From positions 1 through 32,495 of the forward strand of contig JAFMLQ010000022.1 in NCBI GenBank assembly GCA_017852075.1: a stretch of DNA of 32,495 nucleotides, in the 5' to 3' direction. A model generated the notes under the pieces. It was not told the origin of the DNA. It saw only the letters and a program-made list of their open reading frames with translations, and ran no database searches. The position numbers were made by a program, and so were the translations under genes. Each line of letters opens with the position of its first letter. Within the stretch, counting starts at the first letter, position 1. The stretch comes from Flavobacteriaceae bacterium (GTDB lineage Bacteria; Bacteroidota; Bacteroidia; Flavobacteriales; Flavobacteriaceae). Positions 9,075 through 29,118 of this stretch are shown piece after piece.

Positions 9075-10418
9075 TTAGCGATACTTTGTTTTTTGGGCCT
9101 GAGCTAGTGCCGAAGTTGTCAAATGGTATTTGGTCAACATATTGGTGCGTTCCCAGTCTGGAATTTTTTGTTCTTTATAAAACTCAATAAAGCGTCGGGT
9201 AACTGCTCCAAAATGAGCTTCGTGACCTTCCCTTAAAGAATTTGGTATGACAATCTCCCAACGATCTCCTCTATTTTTAAAAAGAATCCCAGGATATTTT
9301 TTTGCTAATTCACCCATAGTGTTTTCGAATTCGAAAGCATCAAAACCTTCTTTGGGATTGATGTAGAGAGTTGGTGTAAAATTTTCTTGTGCAGTTTGAA
9401 GAATTTCTAAATCTGCTTTTGTCCCCCTCATTATCGAATAATGTGTGTCCCCTGTACCTTCGGGTGCTTTAAAATTCCACATCACTTCTACTTTGGCATG
9501 ATGACCTTTTAGCGTATAGTGCATGGCTCCATTTGCATAAACAAAAAGACTATCATTTTGAATGTAAGGGTTAAGGTATTCTGGATATGTTGTCAACCCT
9601 GTTACCTTTTCAAAGTCTATGGAACTGAGAGCTGTAGTCCATCGTTGAGCCGTCTGCAACACTACCTCTTCGCGTTGAATGGCTTGTTCTGGGAAACATT
9701 CCCAAAAGGTAAGATCTACCAGATGTGCACTGACATCTACAAGACCTTCTCCTTGTTGTAAAGTATCAAAAAACCAAGCAGGACGAATCAAAGGAGTACC
9801 GGACACCTCTTTCGAATAGTGGTGTATAGAGGATTTTACGATAGCTGGTTTTTCAAGGCTTCCCTCAATCAAAGAACCAAAAACACCCTCTCGCTGAGCT
9901 AGTTCTTTTTGAAGCAGAGTAGTAATTTCAGAACGTTCCGTCATGATATCGTAAATCAATAATTTTTTTTCTGCAGCACGACGAAAGGCTGTTTCTAAGT
10001 TATCAAACTCTTGAGGATGAATTACCATGGGTTTGTCAGCAAGGACATGAAATCCGTTCTCTATGGCATCAAGGATATACTTTGTTTTTTTCTTGTTATT
10101 TCCTGAGAGTACTACAACACTTCCTGGTTTTTCTTCTAAAAATTTCTGATAAAAATCGTTTTGATCATATACGATGGTCTTCCATGCGGTCGGTTGATCC
10201 TTACGTTGATTGAAATTTTCTATTCGCTCAAGGTGCAAGTTGAGATCGGCACTTTTTGGTGCATACACATGAACTTCAGGGTTGATCTCAGGATACATGG
10301 TTTTTTGAACTAACGCTGCATGAAAGTGTCCTGGATCCAGTGTGATCCATCGAATTTGGTCCATTTTAGAACATGCGGTAACAAACAGCAATGAAAATAG
10401 TACAGTTATTCTTTTCAT
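9075..10418 (-). CDS. Lipoprotein Gfo/Idh/MocA-type oxidoreductase with 'putative oxidoreductase C-terminal' domain
   Basis: A 447-residue protein counted from the ATG at 10418, one base after the stop of the preceding gene. This start gives a lipoprotein signal, MKRITVLFSLLFVTAC, with the lipobox cysteine at residue 16. A longer reading of 25 residues upstream would bury the signal and run into the preceding gene. The N-terminal Rossmann region contains SVVVLSGNNKKK and LADKPMVIHP, in which D128-K129-P replaces the usual EKP motif. The central motif SAHLVDLTFW supplies the conserved H-x-x-D pair. The C-terminal half corresponds to the putative oxidoreductase C-terminal domain family. It is probably an NAD(P)-dependent sugar oxidoreductase anchored in the periplasm. 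It is the last gene of the nine-gene run; its substrate is not known. Confidence 0.82.
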   Translation of the reverse strand: MKRITVLFSLLFVTACSKMDQIRWITLDPGHFHAALVQKTMYPEINPEVHVYAPKSADLNLHLERIENFNQRKDQPTAWKTIVYDQNDFYQKFLEEKPGSVVVLSGNNKKKTKYILDAIENGFHVLADKPMVIHPQEFDNLETAFRRAAEKKLLIYDIMTERSEITTLLQKELAQREGVFGSLIEGSLEKPAIVKSSIHHYSKEVSGTPLIRPAWFFDTLQQGEGLVDVSAHLVDLTFWECFPEQAIQREEVVLQTAQRWTTALSSIDFEKVTGLTTYPEYLNPYIQNDSLFVYANGAMHYTLKGHHAKVEVMWNFKAPEGTGDTHYSIMRGTKADLEILQTAQENFTPTLYINPKEGFDAFEFENTMGELAKKYPGILFKNRGDRWEIVIPNSLREGHEAHFGAVTRRFIEFYKEQKIPDWERTNMLTKYHLTTSALAQAQKTKYR

Positions 10419-10419
10419 T

Positions 10420-11799
10420 TTAAAATTTGATATTTGAGGTCCCGTAGGGCGCTCTTTGTTTTCTTTGAAGCATTGCGTTGGCTTCCTTGTCATTTACAAA
10501 GCGTTCGTTCTCTGGATTCCATTCCAATTGACGAGGAAGTTTCATGGCAATATGACTAACCAAACATACTGTACAAGCACGGTGTCCAATTTCTACTGGA
10601 GAAATAGGTTCTTTACCACTTTTGATACACTCCAGCCAATTTCCGTGTTGTTCGTCGCTTTTATATAAGTGAATTTCATTTGGACCAATGACTGATTCCA
10701 AAAGTTTAGGATCACTAGCATCTAGTGATTTTACTCCGTTGTTTTCTGGAATGGGATCAGAGGCGGTGGCTCTATATGCTCCACGTGTTACAAAGATCCA
10801 TCCTTCCTCTCCTTCGTAGCGAATTCCATTGGGGTAGCCACCACTGGTAAGCATAGTAATTCCATTTTCATATTCTGCTTTGACCAAGAAATCTCCGTGA
10901 ACATCCCAACTTCCATTCTTTGGAAAATCAGCAATTGCTTCCACTCGGATGGGACCTGTATATTCGGTATTCATTCCCCAAGCAGCAGAATCAAAATGAT
11001 GTTGTCCCCAACCTGTGATCATTCCAGCTCCAAATTGTTCTTTTCTTAACCACCCAGGACGACCATAACCTACCTTGGGGTGGACTAGCATTTCTGCATA
11101 TTCCATTTCTGGAGTAGAGCCTAGCCAAGCGTCAAAATTTAATGCGGAAGGAATAGCTTCTGTTTGGGCAACAGGTCCTGAAGGATCTCCAGGAAGTCCT
11201 ACTTTTACTGTATGCAATTTTCCAATTCTACCATTACGTACCAATTCTGCGGCATAACGAAATTGGGGGGAGGAGCGTTGCTGTGTACCTACTTGAAGAG
11301 TGATTTTTTGTTTTTGGACAATGTTACTGAGTAAGCGACCTTCTTCCACAGTCAATGAGGTGGGTTTTTGCAAATACACATGTTTTTTTGCTAATGCAGC
11401 CTCTATAGCGGGTTGTGCGTGCCAGTGGTCGGGAGTACTGATAATTACTGCATCGATATCTTTATGGGCAATAAGGTCTTGATAATTGTCAAACATTTTA
11501 GTATCTGATTTTTTACCCTTACCTCCGTAATACTGATCCACTAATTTTTTCCCGTCTTTCAATCGATTTTGATCTACATCACATACTGCAATCATTTGTG
11601 CACTGTCATACTGCATGGTACTTGGCATGTCGTGATCTCTTGCAATTCTACCACATCCAATTTGCCCCACTTGTATGCGATTACTCGGAGCATTTTTACC
11701 AAAAACAGAAGCAGGTACAATAGTTGGTAAGCTAGCTGCGATTGCAGTGGCTGATGTTTTTTTCAGAAAGGTTCGTCGATTGAGTTTATTTTTTTTCAT
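10420..11799 (-). CDS. Tat-exported Gfo/Idh/MocA oxidoreductase
   Basis: A 459-residue protein with a twin-arginine signal (NRRTFLKKTSATA, then a hydrophobic stretch to about residue 30), so it is exported folded with its nucleotide cofactor. The Rossmann fold follows with VGQIGCGRIARDHD (GxGxxA type). The lysine motif reads LQKPTSL with Q144-K145-P instead of EKP, and GQHHFDSAAW provides the H-x-x-D catalytic pair. Close relatives occur widely in Bacteroidota and Planctomycetota carbohydrate loci and are thought to oxidise or reduce sugar carbons, often C3. It starts 3 bases after the DUF6807 gene stop and ends 1 base before the next start, so it is in the same operon. Confidence 0.85.
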   Translation of the reverse strand: MKKNKLNRRTFLKKTSATAIAASLPTIVPASVFGKNAPSNRIQVGQIGCGRIARDHDMPSTMQYDSAQMIAVCDVDQNRLKDGKKLVDQYYGGKGKKSDTKMFDNYQDLIAHKDIDAVIISTPDHWHAQPAIEAALAKKHVYLQKPTSLTVEEGRLLSNIVQKQKITLQVGTQQRSSPQFRYAAELVRNGRIGKLHTVKVGLPGDPSGPVAQTEAIPSALNFDAWLGSTPEMEYAEMLVHPKVGYGRPGWLRKEQFGAGMITGWGQHHFDSAAWGMNTEYTGPIRVEAIADFPKNGSWDVHGDFLVKAEYENGITMLTSGGYPNGIRYEGEEGWIFVTRGAYRATASDPIPENNGVKSLDASDPKLLESVIGPNEIHLYKSDEQHGNWLECIKSGKEPISPVEIGHRACTVCLVSHIAMKLPRQLEWNPENERFVNDKEANAMLQRKQRAPYGTSNIKF

Positions 11800-11802
11800 G
11801 AG

Positions 11803-12999
11803 TTAAGGTTTAATTTTAATTTCTATCGGATGTGCAAACTGATCCCATTGATTTTCTGCAGCTTCAGGCTCTAATTTACCATCGTAAACAAGCAATTGAT
11901 ATTTTAAGGTGTAGGTTTTTCCTGGATTTAGGGTCCAGTCAGTTGTTTTAGTTGTGGCAAAGTTGACAAATAAATCTCCTCTATTGTATTGGTTTTCGGG
12001 CCAAACGCGGAGCGGTTCGGGATGATTATAATTTTTAGGATGGGAGAGCATAATTGCCCCTCCATATCCTTCATCAAGTTTTCCATCTACTATACACCAG
12101 CGAGCAGTACTGCCATCTGCATTTTTTCTAGTTTTTCCTTCAGAAGAAAGTACTCTGCTGTTCTGATTGTCCCATTCCTCTGTAGTACGCCAACCAAAAC
12201 CCGCATAGCGGTATTGGATTATTGTAAAGGGTCGATCTGTAGCACATTTGTATTCAATTGTGATGTCTAATAAATACTGGTTTTGATATATGGGAACTAC
12301 TTTGATCTCTTGTGTTTCGTTGAGAGCGACTTTTTGAGTCCCGTTTTTCAAAACGACATGTTCATGCAACACCTTAAACGAGCTAAATACAGCTCCACTT
12401 TCCTTTTTTATTAATTTGGCAAATCGTACCGTTCCTTCTTCTTTAGCCAGATTCCAAAAATCTAAGGTATCTCCCTCAAAACGAGTATGGGTCCAAGGGT
12501 TCCATATTCCGTAGTGATGGTAATGGTCTTTGGGTTGTATTTGGGTCAATCGTTTTCCTTTTGGAGTATTTACAGGATGCAAAAAACCACTTCTTTTATA
12601 GGCAGGATTTACTCCATCAGGAGGGTTTTTTACTGCCATCTGATAGCCTATAATTTTGGTGTCATTTTGATAAATTTCGATTTGCCCTTTGTGTTCTCGT
12701 AGTTTAATCTCCTGATCTATCGTTGGGGCTTCCTTTAAAATCGAATAGACCGTGGGTTCTGCTTCAAGGATCCAATACACGGAATCTCCTTGTATTTGAT
12801 AGGGTATTTCAAATTTTCCACGAGTATTTTTCCCCATTAAACGCAGGTTTTGATTTTGTAAATCTTTGGAAAGTTTCAAATATACCACTGCCTTATTTTG
12901 AAAAGAATACCCTTCGGGGAGTTGCAAATGAATTTCAGATTCCGCACATGAAAAAGCTAGAAAACCCAAAAACAAAATGAATACAAATCGAAAATGCAT
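11803..12999 (-). CDS. DUF6807 (PmoA-like) family lipoprotein
   Basis: A 398-residue lipoprotein counted from the ATG at 12999: MHFRFVFILFLGFLAFSC places the lipid-anchored cysteine at residue 18. The mature protein is beta-rich and contains GFLHPVNTPKG, KDHYHHYGIWNPW and WCIVDGKLDEG, the histidine-rich pattern of the DUF6807 family (database name 'PmoA family'; not related to methane monooxygenase in function). Such proteins sit beside Gfo/Idh/MocA and DUF1080 genes in many Bacteroidota clusters, suggesting a role in modified-sugar processing, but the reaction is unknown to me. An alternative ATG at 13059 overlaps the DctM stop as TAATG and would add 20 residues before the signal; I prefer the shorter form because it begins at the signal peptide. 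Confidence 0.82.
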   Translation of the reverse strand: MHFRFVFILFLGFLAFSCAESEIHLQLPEGYSFQNKAVVYLKLSKDLQNQNLRLMGKNTRGKFEIPYQIQGDSVYWILEAEPTVYSILKEAPTIDQEIKLREHKGQIEIYQNDTKIIGYQMAVKNPPDGVNPAYKRSGFLHPVNTPKGKRLTQIQPKDHYHHYGIWNPWTHTRFEGDTLDFWNLAKEEGTVRFAKLIKKESGAVFSSFKVLHEHVVLKNGTQKVALNETQEIKVVPIYQNQYLLDITIEYKCATDRPFTIIQYRYAGFGWRTTEEWDNQNSRVLSSEGKTRKNADGSTARWCIVDGKLDEGYGGAIMLSHPKNYNHPEPLRVWPENQYNRGDLFVNFATTKTTDWTLNPGKTYTLKYQLLVYDGKLEPEAAENQWDQFAHPIEIKIKP

Positions 13000-13058
13000 C
13001 CTTAAATGTAATTGATTATTTGTGAAAAATAGATTCATGTTAATTTTTGTTGAGGTCA

Positions 13059-14354
13059 TTAAAAACCAAATTTATGAGGAAGCCATAAGGTTATTTGAGG
13101 GACAAAGGTAATTAGACCCAATGCAAAAATCATCGCAATAAACAAGGGAAGTAGAGGTTTTATTACTTTCTCTATGCTGGTTTGAGCAATCCCGACTCCT
13201 ACGAATAACACAGAGCCTACAGGAGGTGTACAAAGTCCGATGCATAAATTGACCACCATTATGATTCCAAATTGAACAGGATCGATTCCTATGGACTTAA
13301 CCACGGGTAAAAAAATTGGAGTAAAAATTAATACAGCAGGAGTCATATCCATAAAGATGCCGATAAATAAGAGTATCAAATTGATCAGTAAAAGAATCAC
13401 AATTTTGTTGTCGCTAATACTGAGTAAAAAGTCACTGAGATTTTGTGGAATATTTTCGTAAGACATGACCCAAGACATACTCATCGATGCTGCGATTAGT
13501 AGTAAGACTATTGCGCTTGTTTTTGAAGATTCCAAAAGGATTTTGGAAAGGTCTTTAATTTTAATTTCTTTATAAAACCAACCCAAAAGGAACGTGTACA
13601 AAACCGCAACTGCGGAAGCTTCTGTGGCTGTAAAAAAACCTGCCACAATTCCCCCGATGACAATAACGAGAAGCAACAAGCTGGGTATGGCATGAAAAAA
13701 TGAGCTAATTACTTCTTTAAAACTACTTCTTTGGGAAGTAGGGTACCCTTTTCGTTTTGCCCAAAGTGCTGCCACAATTATTAAAAATGAACCTGTCAAT
13801 AATCCAGGAAGATACCCTGCTAGAAACAAAGCTGCAATTGAAACGCCTCCGCTGGCAAGAGAATAGACAATCAATACATTGCTAGGCGGAATCACCAGAC
13901 CCATAGTTGCAGAGGTAATATTTACTGCTGCTCCGTATTCTTTATCGTAGCCTTCTTTTTCCATTTCAGGACCTAGAATACTTCCCATAGCCGATGCGGA
14001 TGCCATTGCAGAGCCTGCTATAGCCCCCATCATCATAGCCGATATGATATTGATTAGTGCCAACCCTCCAGGAAGAGTGCCTACTAAGGTTTTAGCAAAA
14101 CGAATTAGACGATGTGCTATGCCTCCATGGGTCATCAGCTGTCCTGAGAGGACAAAGAAGGGTATGGCCAATAAAGCAAAGCTGTCCAATCCTGTTGCCA
14201 TTCGTTGTGCAATGGTTGTTACTGCAGCTAAACTAGGAAGACTAACAAGTAATGTGAAAAATGAAGAAAGTGCGATACTCCAAGCGACAGGAGTGCCCAA
14301 GCCGATAAATACAAAAAAACTTAAAACCAAAATACAAATTGCGAGGAGTTCCAT
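13059..14354 (-). CDS. dctM: TRAP transporter large permease subunit, DctM
   Basis: A 431-residue, very hydrophobic membrane protein with about twelve predicted transmembrane segments. Family signatures include SGQLMTHGGIAHRL, GAIAGSAMASASAMG, VIPPSNVLIVYS and IGIFMDMTPAVLIFTPIF, all typical of the DctM subunit, which carries substrate across the inner membrane driven by an ion gradient. It is of usual length and intact. It starts 2 bases after the DctQ stop and its stop codon forms TAATG with an upstream candidate start of the DUF6807 gene, so translation may be coupled. With DctP and DctQ it forms a complete tripartite system. Its place next to uxaC suggests a uronate as cargo. Confidence 0.93.
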   Translation of the reverse strand: MELLAICILVLSFFVFIGLGTPVAWSIALSSFFTLLVSLPSLAAVTTIAQRMATGLDSFALLAIPFFVLSGQLMTHGGIAHRLIRFAKTLVGTLPGGLALINIISAMMMGAIAGSAMASASAMGSILGPEMEKEGYDKEYGAAVNITSATMGLVIPPSNVLIVYSLASGGVSIAALFLAGYLPGLLTGSFLIIVAALWAKRKGYPTSQRSSFKEVISSFFHAIPSLLLLVIVIGGIVAGFFTATEASAVAVLYTFLLGWFYKEIKIKDLSKILLESSKTSAIVLLLIAASMSMSWVMSYENIPQNLSDFLLSISDNKIVILLLINLILLFIGIFMDMTPAVLIFTPIFLPVVKSIGIDPVQFGIIMVVNLCIGLCTPPVGSVLFVGVGIAQTSIEKVIKPLLPLFIAMIFALGLITFVPQITLWLPHKFGF

Positions 14355-14356
14355 AT

Positions 14357-14815
14357 CTATTCTTTGTGTTGAGTGAGTTTATAAAAAAGAATCAATAGAC
14401 CACTTATTGGAATAATGGCATAGACAATGGCTAATGGAATCTGAAGTGAAGGAGAATTCTGTTCGAGCTTATAAGTAATATAAACCAATCGCCCTCCACC
14501 AACAACCATTCCAAAAAGTGCAAAACTTAGAATTGAAATGCGTACGAAGAGATCAATTTTAGTGCGCTGAGAGTGTTTTAGTTTTTTAACAAAAAAATCA
14601 ATAGCCACATGTTCCTGTTTTCCCGCCACATAAGCCGCACCTAAAATGCCTAACCAAATCATTAAATAACGTGCCAACTCGTCGGTAAACGCACTAGGAC
14701 TAGAAGTAAAAAAACGCGTAAAAACTTGCCATAAGACATTAAAGACCATCACCCCTAAAATAAGAATGAGTACACGTTCCACAATTTGATCAACTTGTTG
14801 TCTAATTTGCTTCAT
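14357..14815 (-). CDS. dctQ: TRAP transporter small permease subunit, DctQ
   Basis: A 152-residue integral membrane protein with four hydrophobic segments (about 14-32, 48-62, 85-105 and 125-148). It includes the DctQ features FNVLWQVFTRFF in the first helix, then FTDELARYLMIWLGILGAAY and EHVAIDFFV. It is the small membrane partner that pairs with DctM. The ATG lies 14 bases inside the end of dctP, an overlap common for translationally coupled TRAP genes. Intact and of usual size. Confidence 0.92.
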   Translation of the reverse strand: MKQIRQQVDQIVERVLILILGVMVFNVLWQVFTRFFTSSPSAFTDELARYLMIWLGILGAAYVAGKQEHVAIDFFVKKLKHSQRTKIDLFVRISILSFALFGMVVGGGRLVYITYKLEQNSPSLQIPLAIVYAIIPISGLLILFYKLTQHKE

Positions 14816-15800
14816 TTCTAATGCGATCTATAAGATTGGCCATTTCAGGATCCTTTTTAAATTGTATGTAAAGTTCTTGTGTAGCTTCTTGAAAACGCTC
14901 TTTTTGAGGATAACTTACTTCTACACCTGCGTCAATTACTGCTTGTAAAGATTTATTTTCAGACTCTATCCAAAGGGCGCGTTGATAAGGAATGGATTGG
15001 TCAACTGCCGTTTGGAGCCATTCTTGTTCTTGTTTGTTTAAACGATTCCACAAATGGGTACTGACCAATAAAACGTCTGGAATCATAGTATGTTCGTCGA
15101 TACTGTAGTACTTACAAACTTCATAATGCCGAGAAAGGTAAAAACTTGGCGGATTGTTTTCTGCACCATCTACAACACCTTGTTGTAGTGCTGTATAGAG
15201 TTCTCCCCAAGAAATGGGAGTAGGGGAGGCACCCAATTGTTTGACCATATCAAATGCAGAAACACTTTCCTGAACTCTAATTTTTAAACCTTTGAGGTCT
15301 TCAGGATCTTCTACAGGGCGTTCTTTGGTGTAAAAGCTTCGACTCCCAGAATCGTAAAAACCAACACCTTTCAACCAATACTCATCCCCTTCTTTGAGCA
15401 ATTCTTTTCCTATAGATCCATCCAATACTCTAAAAAGGTGTGCTTTATCGTCAAATAAGAATGGAAGTCCAAAAATCTTGAGTTTGGGGGCAAAATTTTC
15501 CAATACAGCTCCAGAAACTTTGGTCATGTCTAAACTTCCAATTTGAAGAAGCTCTAGACATTCACGTTCACTTCCCAATTGCTGATTGGGATAAATTTGT
15601 AAACGCATTTTTCCTTGAGAGAGCTCTTTGAGGTAAGTATCGGTTTGGAGCATGGCCTGATGGACTGAATGGGTTACATCTAGTCCGTGTCCTAATCGAA
15701 TAATGCGAACTGAAGAATCTGATTTACAACTTAGAAAAAAGGAAAATACTCCTAAAAGTGAGGTGAGAATTAAGCTCGATTTGTAAATCTTGGATTTCAT
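14802..15800 (-). CDS. dctP: TRAP transporter substrate-binding lipoprotein, DctP
   Basis: A 332-residue solute receptor of the DctP family. The N-terminus is a lipoprotein signal (SLLGVFSFFLSC, cysteine 25), so it is membrane-tethered rather than freely soluble. The family signature is clear: GLKIRVQESVSAFD, in which R175 is the expected carboxylate-clamp arginine, then ALQQGVVDGAENNPPSF, whose aspartate and asparagines line the ligand site. DctP proteins bind carboxylate-bearing ligands; those beside uxaC/uxuA-type genes usually bind hexuronates, so D-glucuronate or an oligouronide is likely here. The start codon overlaps the uxaC stop as ATGA, pointing to a single transcript with translational coupling. 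Confidence 0.93.
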   Translation of the reverse strand: MKSKIYKSSLILTSLLGVFSFFLSCKSDSSVRIIRLGHGLDVTHSVHQAMLQTDTYLKELSQGKMRLQIYPNQQLGSERECLELLQIGSLDMTKVSGAVLENFAPKLKIFGLPFLFDDKAHLFRVLDGSIGKELLKEGDEYWLKGVGFYDSGSRSFYTKERPVEDPEDLKGLKIRVQESVSAFDMVKQLGASPTPISWGELYTALQQGVVDGAENNPPSFYLSRHYEVCKYYSIDEHTMIPDVLLVSTHLWNRLNKQEQEWLQTAVDQSIPYQRALWIESENKSLQAVIDAGVEVSYPQKERFQEATQELYIQFKKDPEMANLIDRIRNEAN

Positions 15801-17215
15801 TTAAAGTCAAAATAGTTTTTTGCATTGTAATAACAGATATCCGACACGATTTTTCCAATCCAAGGGAGGTCATTAGGTAAATGTCCCTTTTCAATATCAT
15901 TGCCAAAAAGATTACAGAGTAATCTGCGGAAGTATTCGTGTCTTGGGAAGGACAAAAAACTACGAGAATCTGTGAGCATTCCCACAAAACAACTGATAAT
16001 TCCCATATTAGAAAGGGTGTTGATTTGATTTGTCATTCCATCGATTTGATCCAAAAACCACCAGCCAGACCCCCATTGGACCTTTCCTTTGCTGCTTCCA
16101 TCATTAAAATTTCCGATTAGGGTTGCCATAATTTCATTATCGGCTGGATTGAGGTTGTATAGTATGGTTTTGGGTAGTTGTTCTTTGAGATCCAATGCAT
16201 TCAAAAATTTTGAAAGCGAAAGGGCAATGGGATATTGTCCAATGGAATCCCAACCTGTATCCGGACCCAATTTTTGAAACATACGACTATTGTTATTTCG
16301 CATGGCTCCCAAATGAAATTGTTGTACCCAACCCAATTTTTGGTAGGCTTTTCCTAAAAAGAGTAATAAGGCAGTTTGAAATTTTTCACTTTCAATTGTA
16401 TCCAATTCTTTTCCCTCCCTTCTTTTTGCAAAAATCCGATCAATTTCCGATTGAGTTGCTTCTCGAAAAGGAATGTATTCCAATCCATGGTCAGACAATC
16501 TGCAGCCCAAAGTGTGAAAATGGTCTATACGCTCTTGGAGTGCTTCGCATAAATCATCAAAACTTTTGATTGGAATCTCCGTTTTGAGCTCTAGTAAATG
16601 AACATATTCATTAAAACCAGATGCATGAATTAAAATTGATTTGTCTGGTCTGAAGGTAGGGAGCATTTGCATGGTAATAGTATTATCAGCAAACGTTTTG
16701 TGATGTTCCAAAGTATCTAAAGGATCATCTGTGGTGCAAAGGGACTCAACCTTCATTTTTTTTAATAAAGATTGCGTACTGAAATCCTTTGAAGTTGTCA
16801 ACGTATTGGTTTCTTGGAAGACTTCAATAGCGTTGCTTTCAGTGAGTAAAGCAGAGATCCCAAAATAGCGTTCTAACTCTAAATGTGTCCAATGGTACAA
16901 GGGATTTCGAATCATGTAGGGCACAGCAGAGGCGTATTGCACAAACTTTTCCTGATCTGATGCCGTTCCTGTAATGTATTTCTCATCTATCCCTAGGGTC
17001 CGTAAAGCACGCCATTTATAATGGTCTCCCTCAAGCCACAGTTGTGTAATGGAGTTGAAAACGGTGTTTTGTGCTATTGCTTTTGGAGAAAGATGGTTGT
17101 GGTAATCAATGATAGGTAACTCCTTTGCATACTCGTGATAGAGTCTTATAGATGACTTTGTTTCTAGCAGGAAATTACTGTGAATAAATGTATTATCAGA
17201 TGGTGTTACTCCCAT
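15797..17215 (-). CDS. uxaC: Glucuronate isomerase (uronate isomerase)
   Basis: A 472-residue cytoplasmic enzyme of the amidohydrolase superfamily. It interconverts D-glucuronate and D-fructuronate (or D-galacturonate and D-tagaturonate). The metal-binding motif DYHNHLSPKAIA lies near residues 34-45, TDDPLDTLEHH matches the family block, and LTDSRSFLSFPRHEYFRR near the C-terminus is a well-known UxaC signature. Length matches E. coli UxaC (470). It lies 12 bases after the Gfo/Idh/MocA gene and overlaps dctP by four bases. With UxuA present and no altronate enzymes (UxaA/UxaB) visible, the glucuronate branch is favoured over galacturonate. Intact, with high confidence. Confidence 0.96.
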   Translation of the reverse strand: MGVTPSDNTFIHSNFLLETKSSIRLYHEYAKELPIIDYHNHLSPKAIAQNTVFNSITQLWLEGDHYKWRALRTLGIDEKYITGTASDQEKFVQYASAVPYMIRNPLYHWTHLELERYFGISALLTESNAIEVFQETNTLTTSKDFSTQSLLKKMKVESLCTTDDPLDTLEHHKTFADNTITMQMLPTFRPDKSILIHASGFNEYVHLLELKTEIPIKSFDDLCEALQERIDHFHTLGCRLSDHGLEYIPFREATQSEIDRIFAKRREGKELDTIESEKFQTALLLFLGKAYQKLGWVQQFHLGAMRNNNSRMFQKLGPDTGWDSIGQYPIALSLSKFLNALDLKEQLPKTILYNLNPADNEIMATLIGNFNDGSSKGKVQWGSGWWFLDQIDGMTNQINTLSNMGIISCFVGMLTDSRSFLSFPRHEYFRRLLCNLFGNDIEKGHLPNDLPWIGKIVSDICYYNAKNYFDFK

Positions 17216-17227
17216 ATAATTTTTTGG

Positions 17228-18550: not shown

Positions 18551-18553
18551 AGT

Positions 18554-19942: not shown

Positions 19943-20046
19943 TTTGATTTGTTTTAAGTAAACAGTAATACCAACTCAATATAGCAAAAGTTTTTTGTTA
20001 AATTGCAGATATTAATTTGAGTAATTTACCTAATTCCATTAGCAAA
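19943..20046. promoter_or_regulatory. Divergent control region of the two uronate operons
   Basis: These 104 bases separate the first gene of the nine-gene minus-strand run from the first gene of the plus-strand run that ends in uxuA, so both promoters must lie here. The stretch is AT-rich. TTTTTTG near 19990-19996 followed by TTAATTTG near 20012-20019 is a loose -33/-7 match for the plus strand. A small inverted repeat, GTAA-T-TTAC (20021-20029), is present but too short to call an operator. No regulator gene is adjacent. Confidence 0.4.
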
Positions 20047-21240: not shown

Positions 21241-21243
21241 ATC

Positions 21244-22047: not shown

Positions 22048-22059
22048 AATCAATTTAAG

Positions 22060-23238
22060 ATGATCGAGTCCTTCCGATGGTATGGCCCCAACGATGCAGT
22101 TTCACTGAGTGATATCCGACAAGCTGGAGCGGTAAATGTGGTCTCTGCTTTACATCACATTCCCAATGGAGCAGTATGGGAAATAGACGCAATAAAAAAG
22201 CATCAAGCTCTTATTCAAAAAGCAGGTTTATATTGGGGTGTGGTGGAGTCGGTACCTATTCATGAGGATATTAAACAACGTACGCATAATTTTCAAACCT
22301 ATATTGAAAACTACAAAAGAACTCTCGAAAATTTAGCGATATGTGGGATTCATACTGTGTGTTATAATTTTATGCCTGTATTGGATTGGACACGGACTCA
22401 TCTCTATAAACCCCTTGCTGATGGATCTACTGCTTTAGCTTTTGAAATTGATGCAATGCGCGCTTTCGACTTGTTTGTATTAGGACGTTCCCAAGCTCAC
22501 GAAGAATATACCACTGAAGCAATTGCTGCGGCTCAAAGTTATTTTGATACACTGACAAAAGAGGAGATTGAGGCATTGACTAAAAGTATCATAGCAGGTT
22601 TGCCCGGTGCCGAAGAGGGCTACACCCTTGATCAGTTCATTCAGCGCATAGAAGCCTACAAACATTTATCAAAAAATGACCTACAGGAACATTTGATCTC
22701 TTTTCTTGAAGAATTGACGCCAACCTTAGAAAATGTTGAAGTGCGTATGTGTATCCATCCTGACGATCCTCCGCAGTCACTATTTGGTATTCCGAGGGTG
22801 GTCAGTACCGCTGAAGATTTGGAAGTCCTATTTGAGCGTGTACCTTCATTATACAACGGATTGACCTTTTGTACAGGTTCCTTTGGTGTACGAGCAGATA
22901 ATGACCTTATTGCAATGTTTACTAAACACGCATCAAGAATTCATTTTTTACATTTTAGAAGTACTCAAAGGGATGGAAAAGGAAATTTTTACGAAGCCAA
23001 TCATTTGGAGGGAGATGTAGATATGTATGCAATGGTAAAAGCTGCTTTGACAGAAGAAACTAAAAGAAAAAAATCAGGTAGAGCTGATTGGCAAATCCCC
23101 ATGCGTCCTGATCATGGACATCAAATGTTGGACGATCTCAACAAAGTTACCAATCCTGGATATTCTGCAGTTGGAAGACTGCGTGGTTTGGCAGAACTTC
23201 GTGGGCTGGCACTTGGCATTTCAAGGACAGTTGAGTAA
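22060..23238 (+). CDS. uxuA: Mannonate dehydratase
   Basis: A 392-residue TIM-barrel enzyme that converts D-mannonate to 2-dehydro-3-deoxy-D-gluconate. The N-terminal signature FRWYGPNDAVSLSDIRQAGA is followed by SALHHIPNGAVW. The metal-binding and catalytic blocks RMCIHPDDPPQSLFGIPRVV, LHFRSTQRDGKGNF, EANHLEGDVDM and RPDHGHQMLDDL are all intact. Length is typical (E. coli UxuA 394). It follows the SDR gene by 12 bases and completes, with uxaC, the glucuronate branch to KDG. It is convergent with the ThuA-like gene with only 4 bases between stops and no visible terminator. Confidence 0.96.
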   Translation: MIESFRWYGPNDAVSLSDIRQAGAVNVVSALHHIPNGAVWEIDAIKKHQALIQKAGLYWGVVESVPIHEDIKQRTHNFQTYIENYKRTLENLAICGIHTVCYNFMPVLDWTRTHLYKPLADGSTALAFEIDAMRAFDLFVLGRSQAHEEYTTEAIAAAQSYFDTLTKEEIEALTKSIIAGLPGAEEGYTLDQFIQRIEAYKHLSKNDLQEHLISFLEELTPTLENVEVRMCIHPDDPPQSLFGIPRVVSTAEDLEVLFERVPSLYNGLTFCTGSFGVRADNDLIAMFTKHASRIHFLHFRSTQRDGKGNFYEANHLEGDVDMYAMVKAALTEETKRKKSGRADWQIPMRPDHGHQMLDDLNKVTNPGYSAVGRLRGLAELRGLALGISRTVE

Positions 23239-23242
23239 TTAG

Positions 23243-24010
23243 TTAATCCTTTAAAATAAATTCAATTCCCCCTTGTAAGTGCTTTTGAAACCAAGGTAAA
23301 GCATAAAGATCTTTGCTGTGGCCCAAAGCGGTGTACCATTGGCGACCTCCTTCGAGTGTGTTGTACCAACTCAAAGGAGCCCGTTTCGGACGATAGGCAT
23401 TACTATCGTTTTCTGAAACAGTAGATAAGTCGGCTTCTAAAAGTATTTTAAAACTTGGATTTACATTTTTAATAAAATAACATTCGTCATCCAAATCAAA
23501 TGTTGGTGGCAAATGTTTTGTGGAAGAATGATTTTTTCTGTTGACTTTTATAGAAAAGGTTTGAAAAGGTGGGTGTCTTAAAAACGAACCTCCTATGAGT
23601 TTCCAAAACCAAGGCCACTTGCGCTCCGATCCGATGGCTGAGTGCAATCCGCCAAAGCCTTTTCCACTGGAACAGAAGTTTTGAAAGGCATCTCTTTGCT
23701 CTGCATTGTCAAAAGCTTCATTATTTGTATTGGCGAAAATCACAGCATCAAAATCCATAATATTTGGATTTAAGAAAATTTCAGGATTGTCAGTTATTGT
23801 AGTTTCTACCCCGAGTGATTGGCATATTTTTTCTAAGGTTGCAACACTTGTTGCTATATTTTCATGAACATAGCCTTCACCATTTTTAGTGTAGATTATT
23901 AGTTTTTTTCCTTTTACATTTTGATATTGTCCAAAACTTTGCAGAAGTCCAAGAAATAGAAAAAAAACTAATCCCAACTGAAATTGTTTATCTAAGGTTT
24001 TATTTATCAT
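23243..24010 (-). CDS. Secreted ThuA-like domain protein
   Basis: A 255-residue exported protein counted from ATG 24010, which starts directly at the signal peptide (FQLGLVFFLFLGLLQSFGQ, cleavage about residue 25). An upstream ATG at 24043 would overlap the GH95 gene by 13 bases. The mature part is a single ThuA-like domain (PF06283, class I glutamine-amidotransferase-like fold) with KLIIYTKNGEGYVHEN, DAVIFANTNNEAF, FGGLHSA and PLSWYNTLEGGRQWYTALGHS. The Rhizobiaceae ThuA protein acts with the oxidoreductase ThuB on 3-keto disaccharides. Here the exported form sits next to several Gfo/Idh/MocA and DUF1080 proteins and is co-transcribed after GH95 with a 20-base gap. The exact reaction is not known. 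Confidence 0.85.
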   Translation of the reverse strand: MINKTLDKQFQLGLVFFLFLGLLQSFGQYQNVKGKKLIIYTKNGEGYVHENIATSVATLEKICQSLGVETTITDNPEIFLNPNIMDFDAVIFANTNNEAFDNAEQRDAFQNFCSSGKGFGGLHSAIGSERKWPWFWKLIGGSFLRHPPFQTFSIKVNRKNHSSTKHLPPTFDLDDECYFIKNVNPSFKILLEADLSTVSENDSNAYRPKRAPLSWYNTLEGGRQWYTALGHSKDLYALPWFQKHLQGGIEFILKD

Positions 24011-24030
24011 AAATATAAGTTTAGCTAAAT

Positions 24031-26391
24031 TTAAAATGTGCAAACAAAAGGAACTCCAGCTTTTAAGTTCACTTTTATTCTTTGTTTGAGATAGATAAGT
24101 TCTTTTTGAGTATTGCGTTCCGCCAACAATTGAATTTTTTGCAAGCGGTTATTGTTCCACTCCATGTCTACTTTTATATTCCCTCTGGCTTTAAGTCCTT
24201 TAATTTTCCCATTACTCCAGTGGGTGGGTAGCGCAGGGAGTAATCGCAAGATGCCAGTTTCATGGGATTGCACTAAACTTTCAGCTACCCCTGCTGTATA
24301 TCCGAAATTTCCATCAATTTGAAAAGGAGGATGCGCGTCAAAAAGATTGGGAAAAATGGACTTTTGGAAAAGCAGTTCGATGTGTTCCTGTGCCATTGCT
24401 CCATCCATCAAGCGTGCGGCACAGTTGATAAGCCATGCTCGACTCCAACCTGTTCCAGCCCCCCCATTTTCCAAACGGTAATCCAACGTTTTACGCACCG
24501 CTTCAAACAATTTTGGAGTTTTCGACAAGCTAATTTGATCTCCTGGATGAAAACCATAGAGATGAGACATATGACGATGACCTGGTTCCAATTCTTCATA
24601 CTCACGATCCCATTCTAAAATGCGTCCGTCTGAACCTAACTGAAATCCAGGGCGAAGTTGCTTTAATTGTTGAGTGATTTTGGCAACCCATTCAGAGTTT
24701 ATTTTTAACAGATTCGCTGCTTGAAGATAATTGGTAAAAACTTCAGTGATCACTTGCTGATCCATTGCACTCCCTAGACAACTAGCTACTGGAATTCCTT
24801 GGGAATTGAGGTATCGGTTTTCAGGCGAGGTTGAGGGAGCAGAAATCAACATTCCATCTCTTCGGTCTTCTATGAGCCAGTCGCTATAAAAATGGGCCAC
24901 AGCCTCTAATGCGGGAAACCCTCTAGTTTTTAAGAAATCAAAATCTTGTGTAAAAAGATAGTGTTGCCAATAGTGTTGAGCCATCCAACCTCCTGCTCCA
25001 AAGGAGGCACCCCAATAGGCAGTAGGGGCTCTAAGCCAAGTAGGAGCCCATAAATCTGTAGCGTGTGGTAAAAAGGAACCCCGAGCGCCAAAGTTTTTTT
25101 GTGCAGTTTCTCTACCGCTTTCCACTAACCGATCTACAAAGTCGAATAAAGGTTCGTTGAGCTCGTCAAGTTGGGTAAGATTGGCAAGCCAGTAATTCAT
25201 TTGAAGATTAATATTGAGGTGATAATCGGCATTCCAAGGTGCATTGATGTGAGGATTCCACAACCCTTGTAAGTTTGCCGGGAGAGTCCCTTGTCGAGAA
25301 GAACCGATGAGTAAGTATCTGCCGTAATGAAATAGGGTTTCCTGAAGCTCTAGATCAATTGATCCTTGTTTTACAGCTTCCAAACGCGTATTGGTGGGTT
25401 GATTTTGAAGACTGTTGTCTGTGATCAAATCGAATTGTACTCGATTGAATAAGGATTGATGATCTTTGATGTGTCGTTCTTCTAAAAGTGTTAAATTTTT
25501 AGATCGCAAAGCTTCCAACTGTTGGAGGTTTTGTTTTTGATAGTCCTTGTGATAATATGAAGAATTGGAGACGAGATAGAGTTCCAATTCTTGAACTCCA
25601 GTTACAGTTATTGTTTTGTTAGAAGCATTTATAGTGCCTCCATTATGTTTTGTTTTAAGTCTTGTTTGAAAACGAATTCCTTCGTTGATCGGTGCGGGTT
25701 TTGAATTAAATTTACCTTTGCGTTGGGTAATTTCCCCCTCCATAATCAAATCCCCCTCTGTGATATAAGAAGTAACGGTTGGAATCCCTTCGTCTTGTGG
25801 TCTTTGTAGGGTTAGGGTTCCGTTTAGCCCTTTGGGATGAGCACTTTTTATAGCAATGACGATTACTTGGTCTGCAGCCGATGCAAACACGCTTTGTGAA
25901 ACGGGATATCCGTCTGTTTTATAATGAGTTTCCGCGATTGCCTTATTGAGGTTTAAACTTCGCTTATAGTCGGTTATACTGTCGTGATTGAAGTTTATAA
26001 ATAAGTCTCCTAAGGTTTGGTGTGAGCGGATGAGGGTTTTATTAGAAAATTTTTCAACCAAAAGAGAATCCACTTTTTGAATTTCACCCAAAAAAAGTAA
26101 ACTTCGAATTTCTTCTAAATCTTCTGGTGTTCCCTCGGGATGTGTCCAGTCCAAATCTTTAGGCCAGAGTGAGTCATCGTTCAATTGAATTCGCTCTTTT
26201 ATGGGATCTCCAAATACCATAGCTCCTAAGCGACCATTTCCTAGGGGGAGTGCTTCCTCCCATTCAGATGCTGCTTGAGTGTACCATAATGTTTGGTCAT
26301 TTTGATAGACGTTTTCTGTTTGCGTATCGCAACCCTTAAATGAGAAGGTTAGGAGAATGATCAACAATAGAATATATGCTCTCATAATCAT
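24031..26391 (-). CDS. GH95 family lipoprotein glycosidase (alpha-L-fucosidase or alpha-L-galactosidase)
   Basis: A 786-residue lipoprotein (signal LLLIILLTFSFKGC, cysteine 21) of glycoside hydrolase family 95. It has the N-terminal beta-sandwich with LWYTQAASEWEEALPLGNGRLGAMVFGD, then the (alpha/alpha)6 barrel. The motif NINLQMNYW carries N393 and N395, matching the catalytic asparagine pair of the Bifidobacterium AfcA enzyme. SPENRY gives the general acid candidate E524, and PPFQIDGNFG supplies D693. All catalytic positions are filled. The family includes alpha-1,2-L-fucosidases and alpha-L-galactosidases; I cannot choose from sequence alone. It is the only classical glycosidase in the window and is followed by the ThuA-like gene in the same orientation. 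Confidence 0.92.
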   Translation of the reverse strand: MIMRAYILLLIILLTFSFKGCDTQTENVYQNDQTLWYTQAASEWEEALPLGNGRLGAMVFGDPIKERIQLNDDSLWPKDLDWTHPEGTPEDLEEIRSLLFLGEIQKVDSLLVEKFSNKTLIRSHQTLGDLFINFNHDSITDYKRSLNLNKAIAETHYKTDGYPVSQSVFASAADQVIVIAIKSAHPKGLNGTLTLQRPQDEGIPTVTSYITEGDLIMEGEITQRKGKFNSKPAPINEGIRFQTRLKTKHNGGTINASNKTITVTGVQELELYLVSNSSYYHKDYQKQNLQQLEALRSKNLTLLEERHIKDHQSLFNRVQFDLITDNSLQNQPTNTRLEAVKQGSIDLELQETLFHYGRYLLIGSSRQGTLPANLQGLWNPHINAPWNADYHLNINLQMNYWLANLTQLDELNEPLFDFVDRLVESGRETAQKNFGARGSFLPHATDLWAPTWLRAPTAYWGASFGAGGWMAQHYWQHYLFTQDFDFLKTRGFPALEAVAHFYSDWLIEDRRDGMLISAPSTSPENRYLNSQGIPVASCLGSAMDQQVITEVFTNYLQAANLLKINSEWVAKITQQLKQLRPGFQLGSDGRILEWDREYEELEPGHRHMSHLYGFHPGDQISLSKTPKLFEAVRKTLDYRLENGGAGTGWSRAWLINCAARLMDGAMAQEHIELLFQKSIFPNLFDAHPPFQIDGNFGYTAGVAESLVQSHETGILRLLPALPTHWSNGKIKGLKARGNIKVDMEWNNNRLQKIQLLAERNTQKELIYLKQRIKVNLKAGVPFVCTF

Positions 26392-26521: not shown

Positions 26522-27418
26522 ATGAACCCAAAAACTATCGTGTGTTTTGGTGAAATTCTTTGGGATCTTTTTCCAGAAGGTAAAAGATTAGGAGGTGCAC
26601 CGTTCAATGTAGCGAACTCTTTGAGAAATTTGGGTGTAGAGGTTCAATTCATAAGTAGTATTGGAAACGATTCCTTGGGAGAGGAAATTCTTGCTGAAGT
26701 GAGGATTCAAGGGATGTCAACCGACTACATACAACGGGATCCAAATCACAAAACAGGAACCGTTCATGTAAATTTGGACGACAAAGGTTCTGCACAATAT
26801 AAAATTTCAAAAGATGCAGCCTGGGATTTTATTTTGGCCCATCCCACTACGATTGAATTGGTAGCCAACTCTAGCGCTTTTGTTTTTGGGAGCCTTATTG
26901 CCAGAGGGTTTTCTTTTAAAGCGTTAAATCGTTTTTTAGATGTAGCACAGTTTCGGGTTTTTGACCTAAACTTGCGTCCCCCTTTTTATAGTCAAGGTTT
27001 GCTGAATGATTTGATGCAAAAGGCAGAATTACTCAAGTTTAACGACGAAGAATTGTACCAAATAGCAGCTGCTTTGGACTCTCCATTCCATACTATAGAT
27101 CAGCATATTGAGTTCATTGCAAAGCAAACCCAAACAGAAATCATCTGTGTCACCAAAGGAAAGTATGGTGCAGTCTTGTATTACAAAGGCGATTGGTTTT
27201 ACAACTCTGGATATAAAATTGAGGTGCAAGATACGGTTGGAGCAGGTGATTCATTTTTGGCTATTTTGACTTACGGATTAATTGAAAAAAAATCGATTCA
27301 AGACACCTTAAACAGGGCCTGTGCCATGGGGGCACTTGTTGCGGGAAGTACTGGGGCTAACCCCAAAATTTCGGAATCCGACTTAATTGCATTTATAGAC
27401 AATACAAAGTTGCATTAA
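26522..27418 (+). CDS. PfkB-family carbohydrate kinase, fructokinase-like
   Basis: A 298-residue cytoplasmic ribokinase-fold kinase. The N-terminal signature FGEILWDLFPEGKRLGGAPF is that of the fructokinase subgroup, and the C-terminal VQDTVGAGDSFLA contains the catalytic base D243 and the anion hole. The sequence VFDLNLRPPFY is the standard PfkB DxNxR block. It would phosphorylate a hexose or keto-sugar with ATP. Fructose is the best guess from the N-terminal signature; a 2-keto-3-deoxygluconate kinase would better complete the uronate pathway but those proteins carry a different N-terminal motif. It is followed by the DUF6503 gene after 35 bases and by DUF1080 in the same direction. Confidence 0.85.
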   Translation: MNPKTIVCFGEILWDLFPEGKRLGGAPFNVANSLRNLGVEVQFISSIGNDSLGEEILAEVRIQGMSTDYIQRDPNHKTGTVHVNLDDKGSAQYKISKDAAWDFILAHPTTIELVANSSAFVFGSLIARGFSFKALNRFLDVAQFRVFDLNLRPPFYSQGLLNDLMQKAELLKFNDEELYQIAAALDSPFHTIDQHIEFIAKQTQTEIICVTKGKYGAVLYYKGDWFYNSGYKIEVQDTVGAGDSFLAILTYGLIEKKSIQDTLNRACAMGALVAGSTGANPKISESDLIAFIDNTKLH

Positions 27419-27453
27419 TTTTTGTTTTATCTTGGTAAATCAAATTTTCTACC

Positions 27454-28161: not shown

Positions 28162-28182
28162 CCATTAATTTAACTACTAAAG

Positions 28183-29118
28183 ATGAAAATCAAATTGAAA
28201 AACTATTACCTGCTGATTGTCCTTACTACATGGGGTGCTTCAGCGCAAGAACCAGATAATCTGATAGGAAAGTGGGACTTGGAGGTTCAAATGAATGAAA
28301 AAATAGTCCCTTCCTGGCTAGAGGTAAAGCGATCTGGGGTCAGCACTTTAATTGGATATTTTGTAGAATATAATGGTAGTGCTCGTCCTATTTCAGAAGT
28401 CCAATTTCACAATGGGATTGTTGATTTTAGTATACCGCCACAATGGAATGGATTCAATGATTTGCATTTCACTGCCCAGCTTACTGAAGGGAGGTTAAAA
28501 GGAACAATATTGGGAAGTGATGGAAAAGCGTATCCATTTGAAGGAGAGAGAGCACCCAAATTGATTCGAAATAAAAAAGTGGTTTGGGGAAAACCAAGAT
28601 CCATTTTTACTGGAAAAAATTTAAATGGTTGGCGTTCTTCGGATCCCAACCGAGAGAATCAATGGAATGCAGTAGATGGAGTCCTAAAAAACCCTCATTC
28701 TGGAGTGAACCTTATTACTGAGAAGGCCTTTGAAGACTTTAAGCTACATATAGAATTTCGTTATCCCAAGGGGAGTAATTCCGGGGTGTATCTTAGGGGG
28801 CGATATGAGGTTCAGATCGAAGATAATTATGGGAAAGAGCCAGGATCCACTTATTTTGGCGGGATATATGGTTTTTTGACACCCAACGAGATGGCAGCAC
28901 TGCCCGCAGGGGAGTGGCAAAGTTACGACATCACATTAGTAGGTAGAAGGGTATCTGTTGTGGCCAATGGGAAGAAAATCATTACTGATCAAATCATTCC
29001 AGGAATCACAGGAGGTGCATTAGATAGTAAAGAGGGTATGCCTGGACCCATTATGTTGCAAGGAGACCATGGCTCTGTAGAATACAGAAACATTACCCTT
29101 CAGCTGCCCGAGAACTGA
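28183..29118 (+). CDS. Secreted DUF1080 (3-keto-disaccharide hydrolase) protein with an extra N-terminal domain
   Basis: A 311-residue exported protein with a signal peptide ending near ASAQ (residue 22). Residues about 25-118 form an additional beta domain (LIGKWDLEVQ to YPFEGERAP) of unknown role. Residues about 122-311 are a single DUF1080 domain: SIFTGKNLNGWRSSD, NSGVYLRGRYEVQIED and IMLQGDHGSVEYRNITL. The NSG strand and the following glutamate-bearing strand match both domains of the protein at 18554-19942. A role in cleaving C3-oxidised glycosides in the periplasm is likely by family; the partner oxidoreductase would be one of the four Gfo/Idh/MocA proteins in the neighbouring operons. 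It is last in its run and convergent, at 15 bases, with the sterol-desaturase gene. Confidence 0.83.
   Translation: MKIKLKNYYLLIVLTTWGASAQEPDNLIGKWDLEVQMNEKIVPSWLEVKRSGVSTLIGYFVEYNGSARPISEVQFHNGIVDFSIPPQWNGFNDLHFTAQLTEGRLKGTILGSDGKAYPFEGERAPKLIRNKKVVWGKPRSIFTGKNLNGWRSSDPNRENQWNAVDGVLKNPHSGVNLITEKAFEDFKLHIEFRYPKGSNSGVYLRGRYEVQIEDNYGKEPGSTYFGGIYGFLTPNEMAALPAGEWQSYDITLVGRRVSVVANGKKIITDQIIPGITGGALDSKEGMPGPIMLQGDHGSVEYRNITLQLPEN

Follow-up and report, generated by a model that had tools for sequence, protein, structure and literature searches.

To our knowledge, accounts of oxidative glycoside cleavage mostly concern glucosides, lactose, and glucuronides in the gut, and gut bacteria reportedly carry stepwise oxidation-elimination-hydration glycosidases, an account said to have appeared in Nature in 2024. 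Here, we analyze a 32,495-nt stretch of DNA from a Flavobacteriaceae bacterium (contig JAFMLQ010000022.1 of GenBank assembly GCA_017852075.1; hereafter the window, meaning the whole stretch), in which genes for exported Gfo/Idh/MocA-type oxidoreductases (Gfo enzymes) and DUF1080 proteins lie among genes for uronate import and catabolism. We lean modestly toward the view that this locus provides a periplasm-to-cytoplasm route for the glucuronate units of a glycan or glycoside. It is best read as a form of the known 3-keto-glycoside pathway specialized for uronates, and we file it as a variant rather than a member.

The closest described systems are the Bacteroides BT2157–BT2159 pathway and the Caulobacter and Pedobacter pathways that combine LacABC with a DUF1080 protein. 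According to the source papers, Bacteroides requires BT2158, a glycoside 3-dehydrogenase of the periplasm, to use disaccharides and glucosinolates (PMC11300592), the DUF1080 protein BT2157 is a 3-ketotrehalose hydrolase (PMC9007349), and a Caulobacter DUF1080 protein is proposed to be a 3'-ketolactose hydrolase. The window shares with these pathways an exported Gfo enzyme and a DUF1080 protein encoded in one operon; unlike BT2157–BT2159, its Gfo enzymes score far below the equivalog model, its context is uronate import and catabolism, one of its DUF1080 proteins is a tandem, and two further proteins are added, one of the DUF6807 family and one that we call OxrC.

Two other comparisons concern glucuronate itself. 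PDB entries 8tdf, 8tdh, and 8tda and the glucuronide-3-dehydrogenase 8tdi belong, we presume, to the gut glycosidase work of 2024. The likeness to those enzymes is that 8tdf is the top structural match of all three Gfo enzymes and that the tandem DUF1080 protein matches 8tda; because a glucuronide-specific member, 8tdi, exists, chemistry on glucuronides is not new. However, 8tdi is matched at only 26 to 45 bits, and the marine locus adds a tripartite ATP-independent periplasmic (TRAP) transporter, UxaC and UxuA, and uncharacterized partners. The likeness to Ashwell (glucuronate isomerase) pathway loci with a uronate TRAP system lies in a complete set of UxaC, a D-mannonate oxidoreductase of the short-chain dehydrogenase/reductase (SDR) type, UxuA, and DctPQM, whereas the window lacks 2-keto-3-deoxygluconate (KDG) kinase and 2-keto-3-deoxy-6-phosphogluconate (KDPG) aldolase and has oxidoreductase and DUF1080 genes interleaved in the same operon. 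In contrast to a SusCD polysaccharide utilization locus, there is no TonB, SusC, or SusD match and no adjacent SusC/SusD pair among the 25 open reading frames (ORFs), of 29 with at least 100 aa, that were scanned against Pfam at gathering cut-offs. A survey by title of the literature on TRAP systems and uronates in Bacteroidetes and Flavobacteria found no paper describing this arrangement.

Organization of the Locus and Its Uronate Pathway

The minus strand carries an operon (9,075–19,942) of nine genes, separated by gaps of at most 12 nt or overlapping, in the order D1080x2 (the tandem DUF1080 protein), GfoB, UxaC, DctP, DctQ, DctM, DUF6807, GfoA, and OxrC. Divergent from it, a plus-strand operon (20,017–23,238) encodes GfoC, the SDR, and UxuA; beyond both lie GH95-thuA on the minus strand and then pfkB-DUF6503-DUF1080 on the plus strand (Table 1). 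Export signals were read by eye from the N-termini, as were the likely true starts, and with export so assigned an NAD-type Gfo enzyme and a DUF1080 (PF06439) partner share one operon. Every gene named in the initial annotation was recovered in frame and in place by ORF and Pfam analysis, including three DUF1080 domains in two exported proteins, two in D1080x2 and one in the protein encoded beyond pfkB.

UxaC, the SDR, and UxuA each exceed their curated NCBIfam cut-offs (Table 1), bearing out the uronate half of that annotation, and at the family level they would complete the conversion of glucuronate to KDG. DctP, DctQ, and DctM are all encoded in the minus-strand operon. In sequence searches, the best PDB relatives of DctP are 4n8y, 4ovr, 4x8r, and 4mhf, which we take to be glucuronate- or galacturonate-binding TRAP proteins; by analogy, DctPQM may import glucuronate.

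The remaining steps appear to be encoded elsewhere in the genome. A KDPG aldolase over its cut-off lies on contig C44 (80,013–80,603), outside the window, and directly upstream of it is a kinase that clusters with PfkB-type kinases and is a candidate KDG kinase. The PfkB protein of the window was rejected for that role and left unassigned (39 and 72 bits against a cut-off of 400; even its best family, fructokinase, gives only 112 bits against 450). The C44 operon (L205:10540-16652, ~74.5–80.7 kb) encodes a DUF1080 protein, a Tat-type (twin-arginine translocation) Gfo enzyme, LacC-like and glucose–methanol–choline (GMC)/LacA-like proteins, the PfkB-cluster kinase, and the KDPG aldolase, the LacA and LacC labels being our own reading of N-terminal sequences. 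Keto-sugar chemistry and KDG metabolism are thus brought together a second time in this genome, at a site unlinked to the window. A further contig, C39 (L103:3539-11050), carries genes for a DUF1080 protein, a Gfo-like protein, and a possible TIM-barrel protein, plus a LacA/LacC-like pair, with labels taken partly from N-termini.

Tat-Type Gfo Enzymes and DUF1080 Proteins

The best NCBIfam model of GfoA, GfoB, and GfoC is the BT2158 glycoside 3-dehydrogenase family (BT_2158_fam). Their top PDB match is 8tdf (GfoB 94, GfoA 85, and GfoC 70 bits). GfoC was considered as a glucuronide-3-dehydrogenase and set aside: it matches 8tdi at 45 bits, yet this is not its best match. Tat motifs occur in 83 of the 86 GfoA cluster members longer than 300 aa, 25 of 27 GfoB members, and 16 of 20 GfoC members. 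The GxGxxG-type dinucleotide loop pattern is present in every member of the GfoA (86/86) and GfoC (20/20) clusters; in GfoB it occurs in 6 of 27 members, though other loop glycines are kept (GVRSRG in the window). The tandem DUF1080 protein matches PDB 4jqt at 540 bits across nearly its full length and 8tda at 132 bits.

OxrC and the DUF6807 Protein

OxrC has a Gfo fold (predicted model with a mean predicted local distance difference test score, pLDDT, of 89.7; 4oo3 matches at 50% identity with a Foldseek E of 1.3e-60, and other Gfo enzymes, putative or known, follow from E 2.5e-17). In an alignment of 38 sequences, however, the glycines of the NAD loop are replaced by an invariant PGHFH, within a near-invariant PGHFHAAL. 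The GxGxxG-type pattern occurs in only 3 of 60 OxrC members, a crude pattern that also misses 21 of the 27 GfoB members. The Lys-Pro pair (K154, P155) and H257 are retained. A Tat motif is found in none of the 60 members and a lipobox-like motif in 41. The periplasm offers little NAD to Sec-exported proteins, so a joint loss of the NAD loop and the Tat signal would be expected. OxrC is probably not a dehydrogenase and may instead act as a lyase, hydratase, or epimerase. Of the four exported Gfo oxidoreductases originally proposed, three are Tat-type enzymes as described, whereas the fourth, OxrC, keeps the fold without the dinucleotide-loop glycines; the locus therefore appears to encode three dehydrogenases, not four.

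The predicted model of the DUF6807 protein (pLDDT 90.8) is a beta-sandwich. Its best solved folds are polysaccharide lyase family 26 (PL26) rhamnogalacturonan lyases (Foldseek E from 1e-6; template-modeling (TM) score by query 0.38–0.48), followed by alpha- and beta-galactosidases, HepC, GalM/hexose-phosphate mutarotases, and also a virus capsid protein; we take the galactosidase matches to reflect their sandwich domains. Given the low TM scores and the mixed list, only the predicted fold class, a PL26/mutarotase-like sandwich, is safe. The likeness to the PL26 exo-rhamnogalacturonan lyase/GalM supersandwich is one of model fold only: identity is ~10%, the root-mean-square deviation is large, there is no membership by sequence, and Pfam files DUF6807 as a family of unknown function. 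Sequence searches likewise returned no lyase family (Pfam at E 0.001 gives DUF6807 alone, and the PDB nothing up to E 1). An alignment of 70 sequences reveals invariant H161, D178, H179, H181, H182, W186, D200, W202, N203, H234, E248, R284, and W296, the first five forming a His-rich invariant site. A lipobox-like motif is present in 42 of the 99 cluster members only, and DUF6807 occurs on plasmids in 1 of 72,556 records. In the literature, DUF6807 is named merely as a family number; one source suggests that PF14100 may share an operon with two metagenomic beta-galactosidases. The modeling of DUF6807 as a PL26/mutarotase-like sandwich and the lack of NAD-loop glycines in OxrC are new here.

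Conservation within the Genus

The source genome (1.91 Mb, 79 contigs, 89% complete; the window is its contig C54) has uncultured Flavobacteriaceae as its nearest named relatives, some of which look coastal, judging from sample names. We compared 38 genus genomes, most of them incomplete, and fetched loci from 27, many of which end at contig ends; loci were cut at 20 kb, which split some operons and lowered the counts. The core in this genus is D1080x2-Gfo-UxaC-DctPQM together with GfoC-SDR-UxuA, and DUF6807-GfoA-OxrC is an accessory cassette. UxaC is present in 28 of the 38 genomes (four matches being partial). Among the 27 fetched loci, D1080x2-Gfo-UxaC is contiguous in 17 (with GfoB in 15 and the GfoB-like cluster c31 in 2), GfoC-SDR-UxuA is contiguous in 16, and the divergent D1080x2/GfoC arrangement is found in 16; UxaC immediately precedes DctPQM in 13, and a kinase-aldolase pair is inserted between them in 7. 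The cassette is present in 9 of the 27, a count that is not a prevalence, since these genomes were picked for holding UxaC or a close GfoA. A close GfoA (at least 78% identity) occurs in 8 of 25 genus genomes, and the GH95-ThuA pair in 3 of the 27.

A flank with decarboxylase and mechanosensitive channel genes is shared by 18 of 27 loci, and the chromosomal site looks fixed, with the core common and the cassette and SusCD accessory. The description of the locus as SusCD-less is accurate for the window but does not extend to its relatives: SusC-SusD lies within the locus in 4 of 27 (SusD matches of the cluster at 71–77 bits), and SusD is near 14 of 69 DUF6807 loci outside the genus. Two relatives (G141 and G131; loci L091 and L093) have a homologous locus into which SusC-SusD is inserted together with genes for a LacI regulator, a single-DUF1080 protein, a second DUF6807 protein, and a GfoB-like protein. 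Some relatives carry uxaA/uxaB-type genes; thus galacturonate may be a further substrate there.

Co-occurrence in the Family and Beyond

To look beyond the genus, we sampled 120 genomes of the family, one per genus and including the source genome. UxaC was found in 42 of them, UxuA in 43 (one match short and weak), and DUF6807 in 21. Of the DUF6807-bearing genomes, 20 of 21 encode UxaC, versus 22 of the 99 without DUF6807 (Fisher 3e-10). Outside the source genome there are 31 DUF6807 copies, 13 of which adjoin GfoA and/or OxrC; these family cassettes hold all three genes in 11 cases, while L053 shows no ORF for GfoA and L024 stops short of OxrC. Of the 13 cassettes, 4 have UxuA within 10 kb (0.085 expected, P ~1e-6), as do 0 of the 18 copies without a cassette, or 4 of 31 overall (0.20 expected, P 5e-5); UxuA, UxaC, or TRAP genes are near 6 of the 13. 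Three more DUF6807 copies, of another type, are within 10 kb of UxaC. Around 47 UxaC loci of the family outside the genus, a Gfo gene lies within 10 kb in 13 and a DUF1080 gene in 7, all 7 of which also have the Gfo gene.

A scan of named genomes yielded 69 DUF6807 loci outside the genus (L135 and L139 being counted as genus members), drawn from the best 80 of 550 and therefore biased toward near relatives. Neighbors were labeled by phmmer bit thresholds of our own choosing and Louvain clusters, without Pfam for every gene. GfoA accompanies DUF6807 at 54 of these loci, OxrC at 30, UxuA at 16, and ThuA at 12. A uronate or xylan-enzyme link is seen at 28, whose taxa include Cyclobacteriaceae, Sphingobacteriaceae, Chitinophagaceae, Bacteroidales, and one planctomycete. 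Cyclobacterium and Lunatimonas have the order DUF6807-(ThuA)-GfoA-UxuA, and in Pedobacter UxuA and an SDR diverge from SusC-SusD-DUF6807-ThuA-GfoA-OxrC. In a tree of 70 DUF6807 proteins, for which six genus loci were labeled by hand as uronate-linked from their maps, the well supported branches require the uronate label to change at least 4 times and the xylan label at least 7 times. The co-occurrence in related genomes that the initial annotation had set as its test was thus found, as genus synteny and family recurrence, and the synteny counts in genus, family, and distant loci rule out chance co-location.

Xylan Enzymes and Methyl Transfer Near Distant Cassettes

Some distant relatives of the cassette adjoin xylan-associated enzymes, and four also adjoin methyl-transfer genes, which is new here. 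GH67 (4), GH115 (5), GH10 (10), or CE15 (6) occurs at 16 of the 69 outside-genus loci, and in L138, L146, and L158 the gene immediately upstream of DUF6807 encodes GH115. One Cytophagales locus (L138:1606-14274 and upstream) contains UxuA, SDR, GH67, GH10, GH115, DUF6807, GfoA, and OxrC together. Genes for methylenetetrahydrofolate reductase (MTHFR) and a MetH-activation-type protein follow the module at four Bacteroidales-type loci. Three of them, L150, L153/L210, and L163/L211, have a full operon for a corrinoid protein, pterin methyltransferase, MTHFR, and activator (assigned by Pfam for L150 and by homology for the others), beside DUF6807-GfoA at L150:12041-15839, L210:16719-20000, and L211:1543-5214. 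These operons are a possible sugar O-demethylation system. OxrC is missing from all four loci, which are closely related to each other. A GH95-like gene (L210:14107-16515) adjoins one of the methyl-transfer operons, and a GH95 gene also stands beside thuA in the window.

The position of GH115 upstream of DUF6807, together with the methyl-transfer operons, makes 4-O-methylglucuronate a natural candidate substrate, which we put forward as a hypothesis for the cassette of the window. A search of titles and abstract openings turned up no report of an enzyme dedicated to demethylating 4-O-methylglucuronate. The picture of one glycoside-cleaving pathway, drawn when the locus was first annotated, needs revision in that DUF6807-GfoA-OxrC is a separate cassette; in some distant relatives its neighbors are conventional alpha-glucuronidases, and its substrate may therefore be released or methylated glucuronate instead of a glycoside to be cleaved.

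Proposed Route and Alternatives

We propose that the Gfo enzymes fold around NAD in the cytoplasm, would be exported via Tat, and may oxidize a ring hydroxyl, most likely at C3, of a glucuronate-bearing substrate. Exported partners free of nucleotide cofactor would then perform elimination and hydration, the tandem DUF1080 protein with GfoB and, in the accessory cassette, DUF6807 and OxrC with GfoA. The same bound cofactor could re-reduce the keto sugar, and free glucuronate would be released. By homology, DctPQM would bring glucuronate into the cell, where UxaC, the SDR, and UxuA, as family assignments suggest, would convert it to KDG, to be taken onward by the candidate KDG kinase and the KDPG aldolase of C44. 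The accessory cassette probably has its own uronate substrate. If this coupling holds, a conserved marine locus would place oxidative cleavage chemistry in acidic glycan turnover.

Several observations weigh against this proposal. Although the best NCBIfam family of all three Gfo enzymes agrees with the C3 oxidation first suggested for the locus, none reaches the NF058561 glycoside 3-dehydrogenase equivalog (cut-off 750 bits; GfoA 128.6, GfoB 152.2, and GfoC 109.1). With scores so far under the cut-off, C3 specificity is an inference. The glucuronide-3-dehydrogenase 8tdi is the top match of none of them (GfoC 45, GfoA 28, and GfoB 26 bits). The argument from the loop and Tat signal in OxrC is weakened by GfoB, which has a Tat motif in 25 of 27 members and the strict loop in only 6. 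The Fisher test linking UxaC and DUF6807 is uncorrected for kinship or glycan lifestyle. Among the 69 outside-genus loci, UxaC occurs at 1 and DctM at 0, which leaves the genus and three family loci (L050–L052) as the basis of the TRAP link; 41 of the 69 have neither a uronate nor a xylan-enzyme link, and no uronate or xylan genes lie near the DUF6807 rows closest to the genus clade (6 rows, with L134 and L137 in addition). Among control UxaC loci of the family without a window-type DUF6807, 5 of 46 have these xylan enzymes, versus 16 of 69 (Fisher P 0.07), or 5 of 43 once three loci with other DUF6807 genes are dropped, and a well supported branch splits the xylan-linked DUF6807 proteins from that of the window. 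Finally, LacA/LacC-like genes elsewhere in the genome could be the real 3-oxidizing system.

Within the proposed route, DUF6807, GfoA, and OxrC might work together in the periplasm as a three-part machine acting on (4-O-methyl-)glucuronate units, in which GfoA would oxidize, DUF6807, with its PL26-like fold, would eliminate, and OxrC would hydrate before re-reduction. Depending on the bond eliminated, the outcome would be a redox-neutral glucuronosidase replacing GH67/GH115 or a hydrolytic sugar O-demethylase making methylglucuronate usable by UxaC/UxuA. We regard this machine as tentative and somewhat unlikely; if true, it would give DUF6807 and PF16490 a function. The proposed coupling to uronate import and catabolism would likewise supply testable functions for these uncharacterized families and a pointer to where bacteria may handle 4-O-methylglucuronate.

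A rather unlikely alternative is that the cassette cleaves no glycoside and acts on a free but modified uronate, most likely 4-O-methyl-D-glucuronate that alpha-glucuronidases have set free, turning it into plain glucuronate in the periplasm through oxidation, elimination of methanol, hydration, and re-reduction, followed by TRAP import. The xylan enzymes at 16 of 69 distant loci, with GH115 directly upstream of DUF6807 in three, speak for it, as do the MTHFR and activator genes at the four Bacteroidales-type loci, three with the full operon, which signal methyl-group catabolism. However, the control UxaC loci are not clearly poorer in xylan enzymes, the tree split separates the xylan-linked proteins from that of the window, and the methyl-transfer loci are, as noted, mutual kin without OxrC. 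MtaB, sought as support for methanol release, was found in 0 of 6 genomes searched, so methanol as a product lacks that support. Moreover, GH115 occurs in 0 and GH67 in 2 of the 38 genus genomes, and neither is in the 89%-complete source genome; GH67 and GH115 were also rejected on these counts as the glycoside cleavers here, other glucuronidase families not having been searched.

It is distinctly unlikely that the Gfo proteins are reductases or epimerization partners that finish the work of a LacABC-type membrane dehydrogenase, with DUF1080, DUF6807, and ThuA proteins hydrolyzing generic 3-keto products and the uronate neighborhood reflecting mixed-glycan use. LacA/LacC-like genes do accompany DUF1080 and Gfo genes at two further sites in this genome, no uronate role is obvious for the GH95 gene next to thuA, and one source reports lactose genetics for LacABC plus a DUF1080 protein (PMC9007349). 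Against this, the UxaC/UxuA/TRAP linkage is conserved in genus gene order and recurs in the family, and a KDPG aldolase sits at the second DUF1080-Gfo site. A genomic island of carbohydrate genes co-inherited or co-regulated without a common substrate would fit the varying content of one site, where SusCD, GH95-thuA, and the cassette come and go, but is very improbable given that the pairing of UxuA with the cassette is seen repeatedly, in Flavobacteriaceae, Cyclobacteriaceae, and Sphingobacteriaceae, and that well supported tree branches force repeated changes of the uronate label.

Features of the Window

Table 1. Genes of the uronate locus and its surroundings, in window coordinates
Feature	Position	Strand	Basis
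OxrC, lipoprotein, Gfo/Idh/MocA fold	9075..10493, likely start ~10418	-	Pfam Oxidoreduct_C and weak GFO_IDH_MocA; PF16490; lipobox
GfoA, Tat-type Gfo/Idh/MocA enzyme	10420..11799	-	Pfam GFO_IDH_MocA; twin-arginine motif
DUF6807 lipoprotein	11803..13059, likely start ~12999	-	Pfam DUF6807; lipobox
DctM, TRAP large membrane subunit	13059..14354	-	Pfam
DctQ, TRAP small membrane subunit	14357..14815	-	Pfam
DctP, TRAP binding lipoprotein	14802..15800	-	Pfam; lipobox; PDB matches
UxaC, glucuronate isomerase	15797..17215	-	Pfam; NCBIfam 598 bits, cut-off 387
GfoB, Tat-type Gfo/Idh/MocA enzyme	17228..18550	-	Pfam GFO_IDH_MocA; twin-arginine motif; atypical loop GVRSRG
D1080x2, exported tandem-DUF1080 protein (3-keto-disaccharide hydrolase family)	18554..19942	-	Pfam 3keto-disac_hyd, two stretches; Sec-type N-terminus
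GfoC, Tat-type Gfo/Idh/MocA enzyme	20017..21240, likely start ~20047	+	Pfam GFO_IDH_MocA; twin-arginine motif
SDR, D-mannonate oxidoreductase/fructuronate reductase	21244..22047	+	Pfam; NCBIfam 340 bits, cut-off 281
UxuA, mannonate dehydratase	22060..23238	+	Pfam; NCBIfam 540 bits, cut-off 200
Exported ThuA-domain protein	23243..24043	-	Pfam; Sec-type N-terminus
GH95 lipoprotein, overlapping thuA	24031..26391	-	Pfam; lipobox
PfkB sugar kinase	26522..27418	+	Pfam
Exported single-DUF1080 protein	28183..29118	+	Pfam 3keto-disac_hyd, one stretch; Sec-type N-terminus

Just outside the locus, at 30,064–31,107 of the window, lies a cytochrome c gene (Cytochrom_C and SoxA-TsdA-type domains), whose product is a possible electron acceptor, without a visible operon link.

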